From Chloroflexota bacterium (GTDB lineage Bacteria; Chloroflexota; UBA11872): a stretch of 64,000 nt of DNA. The translations under genes were made by a program, and so were the position numbers. The notes below the pieces were generated by a model. That model saw only the letters and a list, made by a program, of their open reading frames with translations, searched no databases and had not been told where the DNA came from. The DNA is taken from assembly GCA_022826485.1 (NCBI GenBank), contig JAJDUU010000052.1, forward strand, positions 134,692 to 198,691, written 5' to 3'. Below are positions 9,304 through 64,000 of this stretch, piece by piece. Each line of letters starts with the position of its first letter. Position 1 is the first letter of the stretch.

Positions 9304-9652
9304 GCGCACCGGCACTGCGCCCCACCCCCGGGTCGCCACGACATCCGTCATTCCGGCCTCGAGCCGGAATCCAGGCCGGCTCCCGCCGCGTGCCGTGGGA
9401 CACCATTGGAAGCAACGAGCGCTATCAAGGCGGCAGGCAGTCCGGGCCGCTCGGGACATAGGGCACAGCCAGTGCCAAGAAGCTCGCTATTCAGGTCGAA
9501 CACGCGCTCGTGGCGCTGGCACCCTGGCCGTCCCGGCTTGTTCTGCCTGCGCGTGGTAGCCTTCCATCTCCCGACGACGCGTTTTGCGTCGCAAGTGATT
9601 GATCAACAGCGACGAACGCACTTCGCAGACTAGCTGCTGGGCTTCAACAAAG
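9304..9652. other. Non-coding interval with a palindromic repeat and a degenerate block
   Basis: About 350 bp without a credible gene. It holds a REP-like palindrome (9347-9373) and two short blocks, 9401-9422 and 9481-9495, that resemble 10780-10802 and 10824-10839 on the far side of the next gene. The right part becomes AT-richer before the gene at 9653. No clear promoter was found. Confidence 0.5.
9347..9373. repeat. REP-like palindrome (copy 1)
   Basis: ATTCCGGC at 9350-9357 pairs with GCCGGAAT at 9363-9370 around a 5-base loop, flanked by GTC and CC. The same pattern with C/G variants occurs at 53529-53576 and 58501-58526, always between genes. Confidence 0.55.
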
Positions 9653-10687
9653 ATGTCGCAGGAAATGAGCTCTAGACTCGACGTTGCATACTATTATCCT
9701 GCGCCTTATTGGGGCACGAGTGAAATTGGGTGGGTGAAATCAATGCTTCTGTTCTTCGATAGGATTTCCATTCTCCTTCCGCGCTATATGCATGGCCGGC
9801 ACCATATGGCCGATCCCGTGATGGCCGAGCCACTTGAGGACTTAGGATTGTTAGAAGTACTCGAACCTACGGTGTGGGTGGACCACGAAATGACGACAAG
9901 CTTGGTTGAAGTCCTTAACGGCCTGCTTGCAAACGGCGTATTCGACGGTCTTTCCAAAGACGTTCACTATCACGAATTGTCTCAATCCCGGTTGGGCTAT
10001 GGGGCGGACGTTGACTTGGCGACATCGCTAGTATCGGAGCTCCAGGCTCGAGGGCTTGCGAGGCCAAGTGAAGATGGCGTGTCGACACCGCTTCATCCGA
10101 TAGTACGCACAACCATTCTCGTCATCCTCGCGCAGCTCGCTCGATTAGCAGGCAATAGAAAGAACCTATCGGTGCATCCGGTTACCAACGATAGGCGAGC
10201 TATTCAGGACCTCATCAACACTCTTTCGAGAGAGCGAATGCCGTCACGTGACAGAGTAATCGCTTTCGATCTGGAGCCTGTCAGTTTCGACTTGGAGTCT
10301 GTACCTCTTGATGAGCTGCTGCAATTCCGAGCTGAACATCATGCTGAGCACCGAGCCTATATGCGAGATCTCCGGGGATTCATGGCTGAGCTTGGCGAAA
10401 TTGGCGATCCTAAGGAACGAGAATGCCAACTGCTACAGCGACGCCAGGAGATTTCTGACGCAGCGCACGATCTCCAACGCTCGACTCGCAGTGGATTGGG
10501 CAGAAACCTGGCATCGCTTTTTCTGGGCCTTGCTGGCTGCGTTTCGTCGGGCATTGGCGGCGACCCCCTTGGCTCCGCTCTGGCAGCCTTGGGGATTGCA
10601 GATACTCTGAACTCAATGAGCGCCAATTCGAGGACAGTGGCTGCTTATTCATACCTCTTTCGATTGGAGCGTGCGTTTCAGAAATAA
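9653..10687 (+). CDS. Low-GC accessory protein, possibly DUF6236-like
   Basis: About 345 residues, cytoplasmic, AT-richer than its neighbours. The N-terminus reads YYYPAPYWGTSEIGWVKSM then LLFFDRISILLPRYM, an arrangement I associate with the DUF6236 family of uncharacterised, often mobile genes; this match is from memory and tentative. A central helical stretch contains a charged RAEHHAEHRAYMRDL region that may be a coiled coil. A C-terminal hydrophobic Gly/Ala/Ser stretch (SLFLGLAGCVSSGIGG) could be membrane-active or a buried helix pair. The start at 9653 precedes the conserved block; 9665 is an alternative with AGGA very close to it. Function unknown; context suggests recent acquisition. 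Confidence 0.65.
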   Translation: MSQEMSSRLDVAYYYPAPYWGTSEIGWVKSMLLFFDRISILLPRYMHGRHHMADPVMAEPLEDLGLLEVLEPTVWVDHEMTTSLVEVLNGLLANGVFDGLSKDVHYHELSQSRLGYGADVDLATSLVSELQARGLARPSEDGVSTPLHPIVRTTILVILAQLARLAGNRKNLSVHPVTNDRRAIQDLINTLSRERMPSRDRVIAFDLEPVSFDLESVPLDELLQFRAEHHAEHRAYMRDLRGFMAELGEIGDPKERECQLLQRRQEISDAAHDLQRSTRSGLGRNLASLFLGLAGCVSSGIGGDPLGSALAALGIADTLNSMSANSRTVAAYSYLFRLERAFQK

Positions 10688-10830
10688 TTGCAGCGCAGCT
10701 AGCGTTTGTGGTGGTATTGCTGGCGATCACCGTGGTCGTCGGGGTCTCGGAATACCTGTGACTGAGCAGCCTGGCAGACCACCATTGGTAGCAGCAGAGC
10801 GCGTGTTGGCGATACGTTCACCTAGCTTGG

Positions 10831-12195
10831 CTATTCAAGCGGGAATCCTTCAATAGAGACGTTGGTGAAATTCACTTTGCCGCCTTGGTTCCAATTGTTG
10901 CAATACAACAAAACAGTCACATCGCTTCCGTAGGGCAGCCCCTCTTCTATCCAAATCGTCTCCCCGTTTATTGAAAGTCCGACCCAACCGTTGTTGTAGT
11001 GGAGGCGAATTGTAAAGGTGCGGTTGTCGTGTACTGCGGGCATATCACTATATCCCCAACCTACAACAACATGCCTGTTGCCGTTGACTTCTCTGTCCCA
11101 TCCTATTGACAAATCTCTCTCGCCGAATATGTCGTCTCTGTGCGCCCCAAAAGCAATGACATCGCTGTTGTCACGCCAGTTTGGATCATTAGCCTTTCGG
11201 AACGCAAGCACCACGATCGCATCCTCAACAGTTGCCGTCGCCGTTAAGGTGATCTCTCGCCCCGAAGCGTACATAGTGGCATTGTCTGGAAGGGTTGTGC
11301 ACTGCTCATGCGCGCTCTCAAAGAGCACAACTGGCAATGCTGGTGGAACAGGCGGCGCGCCGCCTCGGCCAAGCGTGTCAAGCCACGACCTGACCATGGG
11401 CTCCGCACGGGCACTTGGGACCAGGAAATTCGTGTTTTGCAGGTCGCTCAGGGATCCGACCGTGATTCCCACGACATGCCCGCCCAGCGTGGCGACCGGA
11501 CCGCCGCTCGTGCCCGGATTGAGCGCGGCGTCGGTTTGCAGATAGTTTCCCCCTGAAAGATCGATGCGGTTCGATAGCAGGCCCGTGGTGACGGTGGGGC
11601 TCGCGGGGCAATTCTGATCGGTGAGCGTGTCGCCGTAGCCAATCGCCACGAGCTGCGATCCCAGCGGCAGGGCATCGGAGTTTCCCCAGACGATGGGCGC
11701 TGCCTGACTGATGCCGCCGACGCCCAGCAGCGCGAGATCGAGGTCCTCGTCGCCGGCCACCACGGATGCTGCAGCGCGGTGTCCGCTGGAGGTCGTGACG
11801 GTGATAGATCGGGCGCCCTTGACGACGTGCCAGGCCGTCACGGCCCAGCCGTTGTCGGTGACGAAGAACCCCGACCCGCAGCCTTGATCGGTCTCGATGC
11901 GCAGCAGGGATGGCTGGAGGCGTCGGACGGTGGCGGTGACGTCTCCGTTTGTCGCACCGGTGCTGCCCGCGTCAAGCAAGTCGAGGCGTGCGTCATCGCC
12001 GAGGCTAAGCGCCGGCTTCGACGTGAACGCCGGGTACTGCTGCCAGGCATTGTTGGGGTACTTGCGATTGCGCAGGGTGTCGCCGAGCAGACGGAGCTTT
12101 ACCGGCGCGGACGCGGACTCCGGATGAAACTCCAGCACCGCCGCTTGGAAGTACTGCCGAATGCGACCATCTACAGGCCGACCGGGATCGTGCAG
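10831..12195 (-). CDS. Trypsin-like serine protease, C-terminal part of a frameshifted gene
   Basis: Continues in a second frame the protein that starts at 12814. After about 20 residues (RIRQYFQAAVLEFHPES, a cell-surface module motif) comes an S1C/HtrA-like protease domain: His in TAWHVV, Asp in DLDLALL and Ser in NPGTSGGP are all present, so the fold is intact. Two cysteines (DQGCGSG and QNCPAS) may form a disulfide. From about base 11340 leftward the last 170 codons are AT-richer and encode a beta-rich domain resembling a carbohydrate-binding or lectin-like sandwich, not recognised further. The longest independent reading begins at a GTG near 12138. Confidence 0.75.
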   Translation of the reverse strand: MHDPGRPVDGRIRQYFQAAVLEFHPESASAPVKLRLLGDTLRNRKYPNNAWQQYPAFTSKPALSLGDDARLDLLDAGSTGATNGDVTATVRRLQPSLLRIETDQGCGSGFFVTDNGWAVTAWHVVKGARSITVTTSSGHRAAASVVAGDEDLDLALLGVGGISQAAPIVWGNSDALPLGSQLVAIGYGDTLTDQNCPASPTVTTGLLSNRIDLSGGNYLQTDAALNPGTSGGPVATLGGHVVGITVGSLSDLQNTNFLVPSARAEPMVRSWLDTLGRGGAPPVPPALPVVLFESAHEQCTTLPDNATMYASGREITLTATATVEDAIVVLAFRKANDPNWRDNSDVIAFGAHRDDIFGERDLSIGWDREVNGNRHVVVGWGYSDMPAVHDNRTFTIRLHYNNGWVGLSINGETIWIEEGLPYGSDVTVLLYCNNWNQGGKVNFTNVSIEGFPLE

Positions 12196-58540: not shown

Positions 58541-59698
58541 GTGAACATCGCCAGCGTCCAAGCGGTCGCCCTCGACTTCGGCGAGCGGCGCGCCACCAGC
58601 AAACCCCGCGCGTCGTGGACCGAGGACGCTCGCGTGGGCTCGCCCATGGCGCCCTATCCGCGCTACGCCGAGGTGCGTTCCAGCTGGACCCCGGACTGGC
58701 CGGGCGTGGGCGTGGTGGTCACCGCCGAGGACGGCACGCAGGGACTCGGCATCGGCGCGCTCGGCCGGCCCATGGCCGCCCTGGTGGACGACTACCTCGG
58801 GCCTCGCATCGTCGGCGAGCCGGCGCTGGCCACCGAGCGCCTCTACGACATGATGCTGCGGCTGTGCTCGCCCTTCGGCGCCACGGGACTGGCCTCCTAC
58901 GCCGTGAGCGCCATCGATCTCGCGCTGTGGGACCTGAAGGGCAAGGTGCTCGATCGGCCGGTGTACGAGCTGCTGGGCGGCCCCTCCCGCGACGAGATCG
59001 TCTGCTACGCCACCGGGCCGCAGCACGAATGGCACCTGGAGTTGGGCTTCACCGCCACCAAGCATCCCTGCCGCTTCGGCCCGTCCGACGGCCTGGACGG
59101 CCTGCGCCGCAACGTCGACGACATCGCCGCGCTGCGAGACCTGGTCGGGCCGGACGTCGAATTGATGCTCGACTGCTGGATGTCCCTCGACGTCGAGTAC
59201 GCCGTGCGCCTCATCGAGGAGCTGCGGCCCTTCAAGCTCAAGTGGATCGAAGAAGCGCTTCGATCCGAGGACATTGACAGCCACGCCGCGCTGCGCGAAC
59301 GCGTGCCCTGGCAGACGCTCGCCACCGGTGAGCACTGGTACACGCCAACGCCCTTCCAGCACGCCGCCAGCCGCCGCCTGGTGGACATCCTGCAGCCCGA
59401 CATCATGTGGGTGGGCGGCATCACGGCCCTCCTGCGCATCTGCGCTATTGCCGACGCGGCCGGGCTATCGGTGATCCCCCACGCCGGCGTCAACGAGCCC
59501 TACGGCCAGCACGCCTGCTACGCCCTGCCGGGGATTCCCTGGGGCGAGTATTTCGTCGCCTCGGGACCCGGCACCGACCTCGCCGACGCCGTCTCCGTCC
59601 CCGGCGCCGCCCACCCCGTCAACGGCCGCCTGAAGCCCTCCGACGCCCCCGGCTTCGGCATCGCGATCGACCTGGCGAAGCTGCGTCCGTATGCCTGA
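58541..59698 (+). CDS. Enolase-superfamily dehydratase, L-rhamnonate dehydratase-like
   Basis: 385 residues from GTG 58541. Signature segments are those of RhmD: LMLDCWMSLDVEYA with the metal Asp, LKWIEEAL (Glu), TGEHWYTPTPF (Glu and His), ILQPDIMWVGG, VIPHAGVNEPYGQHA with the catalytic His, and the terminal HPVNGRLKPSDAPGFGI. RhmD dehydrates L-rhamnonate, and related acids such as L-mannonate, L-lyxonate and D-gulonate, to 2-keto-3-deoxy acids. All catalytic residues appear intact. It follows the lactonase-like gene. The GC-rich backbone ends shortly after its stop. Confidence 0.9.
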   Translation: MNIASVQAVALDFGERRATSKPRASWTEDARVGSPMAPYPRYAEVRSSWTPDWPGVGVVVTAEDGTQGLGIGALGRPMAALVDDYLGPRIVGEPALATERLYDMMLRLCSPFGATGLASYAVSAIDLALWDLKGKVLDRPVYELLGGPSRDEIVCYATGPQHEWHLELGFTATKHPCRFGPSDGLDGLRRNVDDIAALRDLVGPDVELMLDCWMSLDVEYAVRLIEELRPFKLKWIEEALRSEDIDSHAALRERVPWQTLATGEHWYTPTPFQHAASRRLVDILQPDIMWVGGITALLRICAIADAAGLSVIPHAGVNEPYGQHACYALPGIPWGEYFVASGPGTDLADAVSVPGAAHPVNGRLKPSDAPGFGIAIDLAKLRPYA

Positions 59699-59938
59699 CG
59701 ACCAGAGCTGCCAGTGATGAAATCGATAAAGGCATAGGAGCCAATAGTCGCCAAACAGCGGAAGCGAAGCCGGAAGCAAAGCAGACGCAAACGACGTCGC
59801 GCGCGCGCGCTTGGACTTGCAAATCCCGTAGCGGGAGAGAGAAGCGCCCGCCTTAGCTCCGCGGACCAGCGCGAAATTGCGCACACCGATCAGGCCGATG
59901 GTGGGGAACAGCACACACTTGGACAGGAAAACCCCAAG
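59699..59938. other. Junction between GC-rich backbone and AT-richer right end
   Basis: About 240 bp without a supported gene. The first part contains a KR-rich open reading stretch (not credible as protein) with a 13-base alternating CG run at 59798-59810. Composition becomes more AT-rich to the right. No tRNA, integrase or clear attachment repeat was seen. Confidence 0.4.
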
Positions 59939-62900
59939 TTGCGGCAGCCCGTGCACAGCGATTGGGCAGGACCGGACGGCGAGATCGGAAGCTATATCCG
60001 CGCAGAGTTCGATAAGTCTCTGGAGTCATACCGCACCCAGCCAAATTTGGTGGCGGAGCATACTAATGCGGAGGAAGCCACGGCGCGCGGCGGCTACGCA
60101 AACCGGCAACTATTCGAACTGATCCAAAACAGCGCGGACGCTCTGGCGGAGTCAAACGGTGAGCGAATTCTCGTCCGGCTGACGCCGACTAATCTCTACT
60201 GCGCGGACAACGGTCAGCCGATAGACCGTGACGGAGTACGTGCGCTCCTCTTCTCTCATCTCTCAGCTAAGCCTAACCAAGACACTGCCCAGATTGGTCG
60301 GTACGGCCTGGGCTTCAAATCCGTCCTTGCGGTTACGGACAAGCCTGAGTTCTTCAGCCACAGTGGCTCGTTTCGATTCGATCGGTCCAAGTCGGCCAAG
60401 CTGCTGCAACCGATTGCTCCGGGACTAGCCAGCTATCCGGTCCTGCGTCTGGCCGAGCCCATCGATTCGTCGACCGAGATCGCAGCTGACCGTCACCTTC
60501 GTGAGATGGCCGGCTGGGCAACGAATATCGTCCGATTGCCACTGAAACCCGATGCAGCTCAAGCGCTTCATAAACAGATAGACGATTTTCCCGCCCAATT
60601 CGTGCTATTCGTCAATCACGTAGGCCGAATCGAATTAGAGAGTCTCACATCCGATACGTCGCGTGCCATTGAGTTGGCTGACCGAAGTAGATGGTGGGAA
60701 CTCAACGACGGCACGAGTACGACACGCTGGACGATAGTCAGCGACATGCACAGGCTTTCGCAAGAGGCGAAAGATGACAGCAGGAGCCTCGACCATGCAG
60801 AAGAGGTGCCGATCTGGTGGGCGGCGCCAATCGACAAATTGAATGACCCAGGTCAATTTTGGGCATTCTTCCCAACGCATACCCCAAGCCTACTCGCCGG
60901 CATTCTGAACGCACCTTGGAAGACCAATGAAGACCGCCAGAATCTATTGCCCGGGGTATATAACGATGAGTTGATCGACGCAGCCTCAGCCCTAGTCGCG
61001 GAAGCCTTGCCTCGACTTTCGGCACAGGACGACGCAGCCAGACATTTGGATGCATTACCGCGCCGACATGAAGCAGGCGACTCCCTGCACAGCGATAGGC
61101 TTCGAAGTGTATTGTATGCGACTCTTGCCAACCGACCAATCATCCCTGATCAGGACGGTGGTCTTCGAATCTTCTCGGAAATCCGATTCCCGCCCGATGA
61201 ATTGGTTGACGATAGATCTGCATCAGATGCAATTGACCACTGGTCTTCTTTTGCACACAGACCAAAAGACTGGCTCTGTCGCAGTGCGTTGACGCGCAAT
61301 CGACTCGCCAAGATTGACCAACTCGTTGATCATGTATCCACAGACTCAACGCAGCACAATGGCGCTTCCATAGGCGAGTGGCTGGAGGAACTCGCTGGCG
61401 CGGCAACTACTGAAGTACTCGGTTCACGAGCGGCGATTCAGACAGCAGCAAGAATCCCAAAACGTATTCGTCACCATGACTACCTTGGGAAGATTCTGCT
61501 CACGGCAGAAGGCAGATGGGTCGACGTTGATCCCGACAAGATATCCCTCGCTAGCGGATTCTCATCCAATTCAAACGACACAGTGCACCTCGAATTGCAG
61601 TCCGATCCAGACACTCTAAGCGCACTGAGCGATCTGGGAATCAAGCCAGCATCTCCGGAGAGCATATTTGCGAATGCGGCATCACACCTGTTGGACGGCC
61701 ACCGTTACTTTTATCTGTTCACAGAACCATACATACGACATGATCCCCAGAAAGCAAGCTTTATGGAATGGCACGAATTCTGGACTCTCGCGCGTGCTCT
61801 TGAGCCGGATATAGCCGCCAAGATCATCCAGGACCAGGTGATTTCTTCAGGACTCAAGCAGTGGAATTGCTGGCGGGAGTCTCTCTTTGTTCGCACTGTC
61901 GACGGGAGCTGGAAGCCATTTTTTGGTGTACTTCTTCCAGGTGCCATAGTTCCTAGCGACGGAAGTCGCGACAGCAACGTCGCTATCGACACCCAATTCC
62001 ATGGACCGGACTTGCCATTGCTCAGAACATTGGGTGCAGTGGCGGAACCGTGCGAGCGACAAGAATTGCCTTTGGCAATGTGGTCGTTCGTAAGCGATCG
62101 CCGAGTGGAGTTCACCAAGCGTGACCTGCCAAGCTCGCCAGTAAAGCAGATGCTGAATTTTCGGACAACCACAACCAGCGGACCGCTGGCAGTCCTATTG
62201 ACGCTTTCCGAGGAAGGCAAGGCTCTCTATACCTGGAATCTGCTTCTTCTTGCCGAAACCTATGAGAAATGGGAAATGCGTCACGATACACGGGACATCT
62301 ATGGTTCCGTAGAATTTGATTCACCAGCGATACATTACTTGCGTGATTACGGCTGCATCGAGGTCGATGGAAGATTCCACAAACTCTCGGACGGACTTGG
62401 AGACCCACCCAAGAGCTCCGCCGTGCTTCGCAAGTTGCTCTCCCACCCACAGGCGGCGTCTATCCGCAGCGCATTCGGACTACGGGCCGACCACGTGGAG
62501 CCACTCGGGGAGGACGAACCCATCCCGCTAGCTGACGCATGGCCTGGATTGGTTCCGTATCTCACCGAGCAACAGGATGATCTCGATCTTGTTCGCTGCG
62601 ACAGCTTGATGACGCTGGGAAGCGAACAGGGCGAGGATGAGCGGGACTGCTTCATCAAGGAGAATATCGTCTACGTCACGCGAAGAGACTATGAGGCCGA
62701 GCTTCAGACATTGCTCCGGGAGCTAGGTCTGCAACTCAGGCAAGACCGGGTCGAGTTGATACTCCTTGGTCTGACCGATACAGACGTGGACGAATCTCGG
62801 GAAGCCATTCGGGGACACGCGACCGATGCCGAGCGTCTACTAGCGGCAGTGGGAGAACCCGCGTTGCGGCAACGTCTGCCGCTGATGCTTATCGAGATAC

Positions 62901-64000
62901 TCGAGACTGAAAACAACGGACCTCTCACCGGAGTCCAGATCGCTCAGGCGGCGATTGCTACGTTTCATACTGGAGCGCTCCGTGAGTATCGCCACGCGTT
63001 GCTGCATCTGGTTCCCCCGAGGAAGTGGGCAGGCACCCCTGCCGCTGTAGCCTTTGTCCAGTCGCTCGGATTCGGCGAGGAATGGGCTATGGAGAGGAAT
63101 ACTCGACGCGATCCTTATGTCGAGGTTGAAGGGCCGTATTCCTTGCCGCCGCTCCATGACTACCAGCGCAAGATCGTCGATACGGTGAGAAGTCTGATTC
63201 GGTCGGACGGGATGCTCCAGGATCGCCGCGGCATGATTAGCCTGCCGACAGGGTCAGGGAAAACGCGCGTCGCCGTGCAAGCGATGGTTGAGGCGTTACG
63301 CGAAGACGAATTCGCGGGTGGCATTCTGTGGGTCGCCGACCGGGACGAGCTTTGCGAGCAGGCTGTCGAGGCGTGGCGTCAAGTCTGGTCGAGCGAGGGC
63401 AAACAGTCTGTGCAACTGCGAATCTCCCGGATGTGGGCAGGACAACCATCACCGCTGCCTACCGGCGATATGCATGTCGTCGTGGCTAGCATTCAGACGC
63501 TGTTTTCCAAGATGTCGAGGCAACTCGATGATTATGAATTCCTGGCGGACTTCAAGCTCGTGGTGTTCGACGAAGCGCACAGATCGGTGGCACCCACGTT
63601 CACTGCGGTTATGGAGGATCTCGGTATGACTCGCCGGCGAAGAGCCAGCGAACCTTTCCTGATCGGCCTTACTGCAACGCCGTACCGAGGGTATAACGAA
63701 GATGAGACACGGTGGCTTGTCAATCGTTACAGCGAGAATCGGCTGGACAGGGGGGCCTTCAGGAGAGACGAGCCTGAGGCCGTGATCGGAGAACTCCAAG
63801 ATATGCGCGTGCTCGCCCGAGCCGATCAAGCCACGATTGAGGGCGGCAGCTTTTCCCTGTCGGAGGATGAATTGCGGCAAGCGAGAGATCTTCCATGGCT
63901 GCCCGAGAGCGTGGAGCAACGCATTGCCGAAGACGCGGACCGCACGCGTCGCATCATGCAGGCGAATATAGACCACATCGAACCCCATTGGCCCACGCTC
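59939..64000 (+). CDS. Sacsin/Hsp90-type ATPase fused to SF2 DEAH helicase, partial (continues past window)
   Basis: At least 1,354 codons, open to the right edge. Residues 50-150 form a GHKL/Hsp90-like ATPase of the sacsin type: ELIQNSADAL (N-box, about 60-69), CADNGQPID (90-95) and IGRYGLGFKSVLAV (about 119-132). Roughly 900 residues without recognisable repeats follow. From about 1080 comes an SF2 helicase: LHDYQRKIV, SLPTGSGKTRVAV (Walker A, about 1102), FDEAHRSV (about 1211) and LTATPYRG (about 1245); motifs IV-VI lie beyond the window. TTG 59939 has AGGAAA 10 bases upstream; GTG 59951 is the alternative. Base composition differs from the backbone. The domain pair suggests nucleic-acid surveillance or anti-phage defence; no known system is matched. 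Confidence 0.85.
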   Translation, partial: MRQPVHSDWAGPDGEIGSYIRAEFDKSLESYRTQPNLVAEHTNAEEATARGGYANRQLFELIQNSADALAESNGERILVRLTPTNLYCADNGQPIDRDGVRALLFSHLSAKPNQDTAQIGRYGLGFKSVLAVTDKPEFFSHSGSFRFDRSKSAKLLQPIAPGLASYPVLRLAEPIDSSTEIAADRHLREMAGWATNIVRLPLKPDAAQALHKQIDDFPAQFVLFVNHVGRIELESLTSDTSRAIELADRSRWWELNDGTSTTRWTIVSDMHRLSQEAKDDSRSLDHAEEVPIWWAAPIDKLNDPGQFWAFFPTHTPSLLAGILNAPWKTNEDRQNLLPGVYNDELIDAASALVAEALPRLSAQDDAARHLDALPRRHEAGDSLHSDRLRSVLYATLANRPIIPDQDGGLRIFSEIRFPPDELVDDRSASDAIDHWSSFAHRPKDWLCRSALTRNRLAKIDQLVDHVSTDSTQHNGASIGEWLEELAGAATTEVLGSRAAIQTAARIPKRIRHHDYLGKILLTAEGRWVDVDPDKISLASGFSSNSNDTVHLELQSDPDTLSALSDLGIKPASPESIFANAASHLLDGHRYFYLFTEPYIRHDPQKASFMEWHEFWTLARALEPDIAAKIIQDQVISSGLKQWNCWRESLFVRTVDGSWKPFFGVLLPGAIVPSDGSRDSNVAIDTQFHGPDLPLLRTLGAVAEPCERQELPLAMWSFVSDRRVEFTKRDLPSSPVKQMLNFRTTTTSGPLAVLLTLSEEGKALYTWNLLLLAETYEKWEMRHDTRDIYGSVEFDSPAIHYLRDYGCIEVDGRFHKLSDGLGDPPKSSAVLRKLLSHPQAASIRSAFGLRADHVEPLGEDEPIPLADAWPGLVPYLTEQQDDLDLVRCDSLMTLGSEQGEDERDCFIKENIVYVTRRDYEAELQTLLRELGLQLRQDRVELILLGLTDTDVDESREAIRGHATDAERLLAAVGEPALRQRLPLMLIEILETENNGPLTGVQIAQAAIATFHTGALREYRHALLHLVPPRKWAGTPAAVAFVQSLGFGEEWAMERNTRRDPYVEVEGPYSLPPLHDYQRKIVDTVRSLIRSDGMLQDRRGMISLPTGSGKTRVAVQAMVEALREDEFAGGILWVADRDELCEQAVEAWRQVWSSEGKQSVQLRISRMWAGQPSPLPTGDMHVVVASIQTLFSKMSRQLDDYEFLADFKLVVFDEAHRSVAPTFTAVMEDLGMTRRRRASEPFLIGLTATPYRGYNEDETRWLVNRYSENRLDRGAFRRDEPEAVIGELQDMRVLARADQATIEGGSFSLSEDELRQARDLPWLPESVEQRIAEDADRTRRIMQANIDHIEPHWPTL

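Follow-up and report, generated by a model that had tools for sequence, protein, structure and literature searches.

A sacsin-type ATPase fused to a helicase in a Chloroflexota bacterium: a probable stand-alone member of a protein family linked to BrnT toxins and DISARM-like operons

The window analysed here is a stretch of 64,000 nucleotides from a Chloroflexota bacterium (G000:C45:134692-198691; the genome comprises 3.17 Mb in 52 contigs). At its right end lies a giant gene which combines a sacsin-type ATPase, a long middle region and a superfamily 2 (SF2) helicase in one protein, as indicated by the frame and by profile matches (59939..64000, on to 64384). The gene, its parts described below and the upstream gene are on the + strand. 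From a TTG at 59939 the frame runs without an internal stop to a TAG at window coordinate 64384 (L002:7075), i.e., 384 bases beyond the window end on the same contig, and encodes 1481 aa. An earlier note on this DNA had proposed this frame with a start at 59939. The frame is real; the start is probably located upstream, near 59744. Ahead of the TTG no stop interrupts the frame as far back as 59738, and positions 59738-59938 code for a Lys/Arg-rich stretch (IVAKQRKRSRKQSRRKRRRARA) which can be aligned to the beginnings of the closest Chloroflexota relatives, L030 (MAKPKKRSQKQRRRSRRRRREA), L033 and L023. Because of this alignment the probable true N-terminus is placed in the in-frame tail at 59744..59938. 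The upstream in-frame tail contains no ATG, GTG or TTG. Probably, translation starts from a non-canonical codon, ATA at 59744 or GTC at 59747, following an AGGAG. The missing standard start (window 59735-59950) may reflect a rare start codon, an assembly error or a start lost by mutation.

The fusion of a sacsin-type ATPase with an SF2 helicase in a single frame, initially read from the sequence, is confirmed by Pfam, NCBIfam, an AlphaFold2 (AF2) model and the continued frame. The N-terminal module (residues 1-385, 59939..61093) is a sacsin/Hsp90-type (GHKL) ATPase. Pfam reports HATPase_c_3/SACS at residues 57-145, and the NCBIfam model P_loop_sacsin for a sacsin N-terminal ATP-binding-like domain (NF047352) scores 68.7 bits, above its cut-off of 50. 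Residues 1-470, when modelled with AF2 (predicted local distance difference test score, pLDDT, of 91), match TRAP1/Hsp90 and the SR1 region of human sacsin with E about 3e-8 to 3e-7. The N-box GGYANRQLFELIQNSADA at 60092..60142 comprises E60, N64 and D67; the G2 box AQIGRYGLGFKSVL is found at 60287..60328, and a NAPWKTNEDR motif with K328 and R333 follows the ATPase domain at 60902..60940. At the C-terminal end is a RadD/ResIII-like SF2 helicase (residues 1069-1481, 63143..64000 and continuing past the window), based on ResIII/DEAD/Helicase_C matches in Pfam at residues 1072-1443, on NCBIfam and on the PDB match 6jde. Its Walker A motif PTGSGKT (63245..63265) contains K1108; the DEAH box is at 63569..63580 and motif III, TATP, at 63671..63682. 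The protein has the full set of N-box, G1, G2, Walker A, DEAH, TATP and motif VI. The two enzymes are separated by the middle region (residues 385-1085, 61091..63193), confidently modelled at a pLDDT of 89 as helices with interspersed beta-hairpins. Neither a fold search against the PDB and a viral library nor a sequence profile returned a match for this region. Its length is ~700 residues; the earlier note had put it at about 900.

The gene is AT-richer than its surroundings, as had been noted before, with a guanine-cytosine (GC) content of 0.56 versus about 0.67 in the flanks. Its left neighbour is racemase-like and its right neighbour an ATP-binding cassette (ABC) transporter ATPase, both by reading. 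These flanking genes are ~4.9 kb apart here, compared with only about 140-390 bp in all five other genomes of the genus that were compared, in which the site is empty. Homology to the congeners ends at the 3' end of the racemase-like gene (59664..59698), where the insertion has its left border, and picks up again about 57 bp past the stop of the giant. Where the sequence of the congeners resumes, at about 64441-64472 (L002:7132-7163), a diverged second copy of the 3' end of the racemase-like gene is located. As the flanking genes adjoin each other without the giant in 5/5 congeners, the giant came in, judged from these genome sequences, as an insertion of about 4.8 kb with no other gene. Among the 41 genomes of the class which were searched only one other full-length relative was found (G287, 58% identical); it sits elsewhere in its genome, beside a gapA-like gene. 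The earlier note had asked for the sequence to the right of the window. There the ABC transporter is followed by another racemase-like gene (by reading), not by a defence island. The neighbours at the window locus are metabolic, an outcome which had been named as speaking against a defence gene. Since the empty sites mark them merely as the genes at the insertion point, these housekeeping neighbours do not refute a defence function.

When 84,980 species genomes were scanned, 247 relatives emerged, the best 80 of which were read. The two-ATPase fusion is borne out: it is a real family, spread across many phyla, in which both catalytic cores are conserved. Most relatives likewise have the three parts in one frame, with a length of about 1500-1600 residues. 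When 67 intact proteins are aligned, E60, N64, D67, G2, K328, R333, K1108, DEAH, TATP and motif VI vary little or not at all; E60, N64, D67, K328, R333 and K1108 are found in 67/67. The aspartate of the G1 box, D90, varies and is an asparagine in 39 of the 67 proteins. This adenine-contacting residue of the GHKL G1 box is apparently asparagine in DISARM-linked members and aspartate in clade A.

The family tree has two main clades, A, which includes the window protein, and B, mostly from Actinomycetota. Clade A members come from Chloroflexota, Acidobacteriota, Pseudomonadota, Gemmatimonadota, Acidimicrobiia and Rhodothermota; the sequences from Pseudomonadota, Acidobacteriota and Gemmatimonadota are interleaved, and those from Chloroflexota and Acidimicrobiia largely cohere. 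Many of the clade A genomes may be sponge-symbiont bins. In three clade A genomes (L057, L061, L063) the frame of the giant is interrupted, as expected for a gene that is often gained and lost. The window protein alone had no match among viral contigs, a tblastn search of plasmids gave no full-length relative, and the best phage matches are annotated as ordinary DNA helicases. A three-protein alignment searched against viral contigs retrieved one distant relative, L110, on an IMG/VR contig beside the type I restriction genes HsdM and HsdR; possibly this is a defence island, the viral contig being mis-called or integrated. In the literature found on sacsin and helicases, on sacsin and DISARM and on BrnA-helicase fusions the architecture is not described, with subscription papers mostly outside this coverage.

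A search for the same architecture and for defence genes as neighbours had been suggested, and relatives indeed lie in DISARM-like operons or are paired with BrnT. The toxin BrnT in the clade of the window gene itself had not been foreseen. In clade A a BrnT gene is present in 19 of 40 loci, always directly upstream of the giant and nowhere else in the 678 kb of sequence. In at least 14 of these 19 loci the stop of BrnT overlaps the start of the giant by four bases. The BrnT proteins from the three loci tested match PF04365 over the cut-off with E about 1e-25, and one clade A BrnT matches the toxin chain of PDB 7vd7 (E 1.3e-16). Clustering of the clade A neighbours brought up no conserved gene other than BrnT.

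The giants of BrnT loci begin with M(K/R)xEYDFSKGxRGxF. Several observations identify this start as similar to BrnA, the antitoxin of BrnT. In L053 the start of the giant shares 51% identity across 47 aa (E 5e-15) with a genuine BrnA encoded in the genome of the window itself, which in turn matches PF14384 at 8.5e-15. Among PDB entries, the L053 start comes closest to the antitoxin chain of 7vd7, which has 44 residues (E 0.0025). Further, an annotated plasmid BrnA overlapping a BrnT gene starts with MRDEYDFSKGKRG, i.e., has the same EYDFSKGKRG as the giants, and continues with a ribbon-helix-helix (RHH) part. PF14384, the RHH/BrnA DNA-binding domain, was not detected in the starts of the giants tested, and no clade A locus has a separate BrnA. 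This suggests that the start of BrnT-linked giants is a BrnA-type toxin-binding segment and that the giant body takes the place of the DNA-binding domain of BrnA. In the 40 loci BrnT and the BrnA-like start are both present in 18, the start only in 4, BrnT only in 1 and neither in 17 (Fisher p 1e-6, counting the loci as independent despite their kinship; L023 and L058 are from the same genome). On reading, the sole BrnT-only locus, L066, also has a BrnA-like start (MKQEYDFSEGVRGRF). The four loci with such a start and no intact BrnT are L034, L038, L057 and L080, of which L038 retains a C-terminal remnant of BrnT. Leptospira plasmids encode proteins with the same start as well; these are small and have no annotated BrnT. 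When compared with the type II toxin-antitoxin (TA) system BrnT/BrnA, the clade A loci thus share the toxin gene directly upstream and overlapping and the BrnA-type segment, and differ in that the RHH domain is swapped for a two-ATPase giant. These data suggest that the BrnT-linked giant is an antitoxin joined in one chain to a DNA sensor with two ATPases.

A different gene neighbourhood prevails in clade B, which consists mostly of Actinomycetota and one Chloroflexota case (L067). Outside clade A there are 43 loci, 37 of which were selected for having a DISARM-like cluster. In these, genes for a UvrD/GajB-like helicase, DrmA and DrmB come after the giant, each in 37/37, and a cytosine methyltransferase is present in 36/37; Vsr is found in 27 and a PDC-M33-like gene in 28. 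In the actinobacterial branch the giant is positioned between the cytosine methyltransferase and DrmA-DrmB. In the operon of L078 (3698-21596), to which 36 loci are similar, cytosine methyltransferase, PDC-M33A/C-like genes, giant, UvrD/GajB-like helicase, DrmA and DrmB are assembled, often with Vsr. DrmA of L078 scores 1005.8 bits (cut-off 950) and DrmB 489 (cut-off 240). The six remaining loci are L069, L082, L019, L081, L074 and L110. The contigs of L069 and L082 are truncated, L069 having Vsr and a methyltransferase; L074 and L110 show none of the DISARM-like cluster genes.

DISARM consists of DrmA, DrmB, DrmMII/DrmMI and DrmC with accessory DrmD/DrmE. The clade B operons resemble it by DrmA and DrmB homologues, over the NCBIfam cut-offs in L078, and by the cytosine methyltransferase. 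They differ by the additional sacsin-helicase giant, the UvrD/GajB-like helicase and, often, Vsr and PDC-M33-like genes. The sacsin-helicase giant is an added component of an actinobacterial DISARM-like operon, not described in the literature found. The earlier statement that the gene matches no DISARM component list is consequently correct for the window locus, which has none of the partners of the clade B operon, and incorrect for the family. Two Chloroflexota genomes, L024 and L025, contain the helicase half as a stand-alone protein, 40-42% identical to residues 999-1478; in L024 (1678-10710), as in L025, it is accompanied by a cytosine methyltransferase and an HhH-GPD DNA glycosylase gene, opposite to DrmB-DrmA. 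The Chloroflexota locus L067 (1734-18788) has two tandem cytosine methyltransferase genes and Vsr; its giant possesses about 300 additional N-terminal residues without a Pfam match, and a NERD-helicase gene follows.

Within clade A the window copy is part of a Chloroflexota subclade whose members, with the exception of L053, have neither BrnT nor a BrnA-like start and mostly carry a basic tail. L053 keeps both BrnT and the BrnA-like start, and its giant is split into two frames. We regard the window copy as a toxin-less solo form and infer its function from kinship and mobility. The gene is probably a horizontally acquired, stand-alone member of an anti-phage or anti-invader protein family. 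The family itself very probably represents a branch of bacterial immunity not described before; its defence role is well supported, that of the window copy an extension from its relatives. The earlier suggestion of a defence gene is strengthened by the insertion, with empty sites in 5/5 congeners, and by relatives which are strongly tied to defence.

Several observations weigh against this view. The window locus differs from BrnT/BrnA loci in both respects: no BrnT was found within 1.5 kb upstream, and the giant begins with the Lys/Arg-rich tail, not with a BrnA-like segment. The two BrnT matches in the genome are on other contigs. In a search of the same genome DrmA (NF038325), DrmB (NF038324) and cytosine methyltransferase (PF00145) were all without a match. 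As all these partners are missing, the role of the window copy is assigned by kinship. Even in clade A the BrnT link is not universal (19/40); the profile of the EYDFSKG-type start ranks 7vd7_B first at an E of 0.18 only, and TA systems are generally enriched in sponge symbionts (PMC5649159). An ordinary BrnT-BrnA pair in the genome of the window (G000:C18:1480-1728, L111) is unlinked to the giant.

Four rival explanations have to be weighed. The gene could encode a RadD-type repair or replication-fork helicase with an incidental chaperone-like ATPase and have no role in defence. The helicase half resembles RadD (111 bits; PDB 6jde) and the window gene is a solo gene amid metabolic genes. The RadD/YejH score of 111.4 bits, however, is far from the NF053632 cut-off of 720, and membership in RadD was rejected. 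Further, the giant is missing, with an empty site, in 5/5 congeners, and full-length copies are present in only 2 of the 41 class genomes including that of the window, a scarcity which is unlike a repair gene; and relatives lie in DISARM-like operons or pair with BrnT. A repair function is therefore unlikely. Similarly unlikely is that the window gene is a degenerate leftover of a BrnT- or DISARM-linked component which has lost partners and function. This would agree with the lack of partners at the locus and in the genome, with the broken copies in other genomes (L057, L061, L063) and with a basic tail lacking a standard start codon. Yet the frame of 1481 codons is intact with all catalytic motifs kept, and six more solo relatives of the Chloroflexota subclade (L023, L030-L033, L036) are intact at about 46-61% identity, most of them with the basic tail, which indicates purifying selection on the solo form.

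The pair of BrnT and giant might also be an ordinary TA addiction module whose antitoxin carries a large extra body and senses no phage. The four-nucleotide overlap of toxin and antitoxin genes and the BrnA-type segment are what such a module would display; an ordinary antitoxin, however, would hardly require a pair of conserved ATPase engines spread across 1400 residues, and the same body occurs toxin-less in DISARM-like operons. We consider this improbable. Very improbable is that the giant belongs to the Tiamat (TmtA) family. Its residues 18-531 match the TmtA profile (PDLC03964) with E 8.7e-59, and the N-terminal sacsin-type ATPases are homologous. The match is restricted to profile positions 11-510 of 1538 (198 bits) compared with positions 6-1142 (932 bits) for a NOV_C/DUF3883 protein; the giant has another middle and a helicase where Tiamat has NOV_C/DUF3883, i.e., there is no NOV_C in its C-terminal part. 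With only the N-terminal third of the profile matched, membership in Tiamat was rejected.

For the preferred reading, a family of anti-invader proteins, a mechanism can be sketched. GHKL ATPases such as Hsp90 and MutL close upon ATP binding, and translocation along DNA is what SF2 helicases of this kind do. On the most parsimonious model the C-terminal motor would engage foreign or replicating DNA; the Hsp90-like domain would close with ATP and report this engagement via the middle region, and the output would differ by branch. In BrnT-linked members closure of the clamp might free BrnT, causing RNA cleavage and a growth stop. The antitoxin segment directly precedes the clamp, a position at which a change of conformation could release the toxin. 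In DISARM-like members the giant may act with DrmA and DrmB, and the neighbouring methyltransferase would mark self, as has been reported for DrmAB, which has a lower ATPase activity on methylated DNA (PMC9142583). For the window form with its basic tail and no toxin, direct obstruction of DNA would be the simplest output, or some other partner may be involved. Tentatively, we suggest an undescribed architecture in which an antitoxin peptide, joined in one chain to an Hsp90-like ATPase and a DNA motor, guards BrnT, recognition of invader DNA leads to an ATP-driven clamp and toxin release, and the same body operates toxin-less in a DISARM-like operon and as a self-sufficient single gene, the form found in the window; as a whole this is possible rather than probable.

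Toxins coupled to motor-based defence have precedents. BrnT-like toxins have been reported to lie upstream of CoCoNuT systems (PMC11090510) and a RelE-like domain to be fused to the GajB-like helicase of ARMADA II (PMC12458937). These systems use a McrBC GTPase or YprA/GajB helicases, not a sacsin-helicase, and a BrnA segment fused to such a motor is not described in the literature found. The finding joins three things which are usually studied separately, sacsin/Hsp90-type ATPases, BrnT-type RNase toxins and SF2 motors of the DISARM/RadD type. As the giant occurs naturally in three forms, with BrnT, as part of a DISARM-like operon and alone, an Hsp90-like clamp becomes directly testable as a switch between DNA sensing and immune output. 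Human SACS is a disease gene with an unclear mechanism.

Two further systems use comparable parts. An Mza-like operon in L019 (6773-16977) and, by similarity, L081 comprises a cytosine methyltransferase, MzaB, MzaD and MzaC/Z1. In it an extra, separate subunit is homologous to the giant from the N-terminal ATPase through the middle; it has no helicase, and the motor would be Z1/MzaC. In the Pbe modules (PbeABCD) of Dnd systems the two enzyme types of the giant are present as separate proteins: in L026 and L027 a gene for a PbeA-like helicase lies next to a separate one for a GHKL ATPase, and L027 also has a PLD-like gene. The GHKL protein is MORC-like and unfused, not sacsin-like. Lastly, at 9599-12138 the window has a further GC dip (0.54-0.62) containing an open reading frame of 362 aa of no known kind and, by reading, one for a trypsin-like protease.

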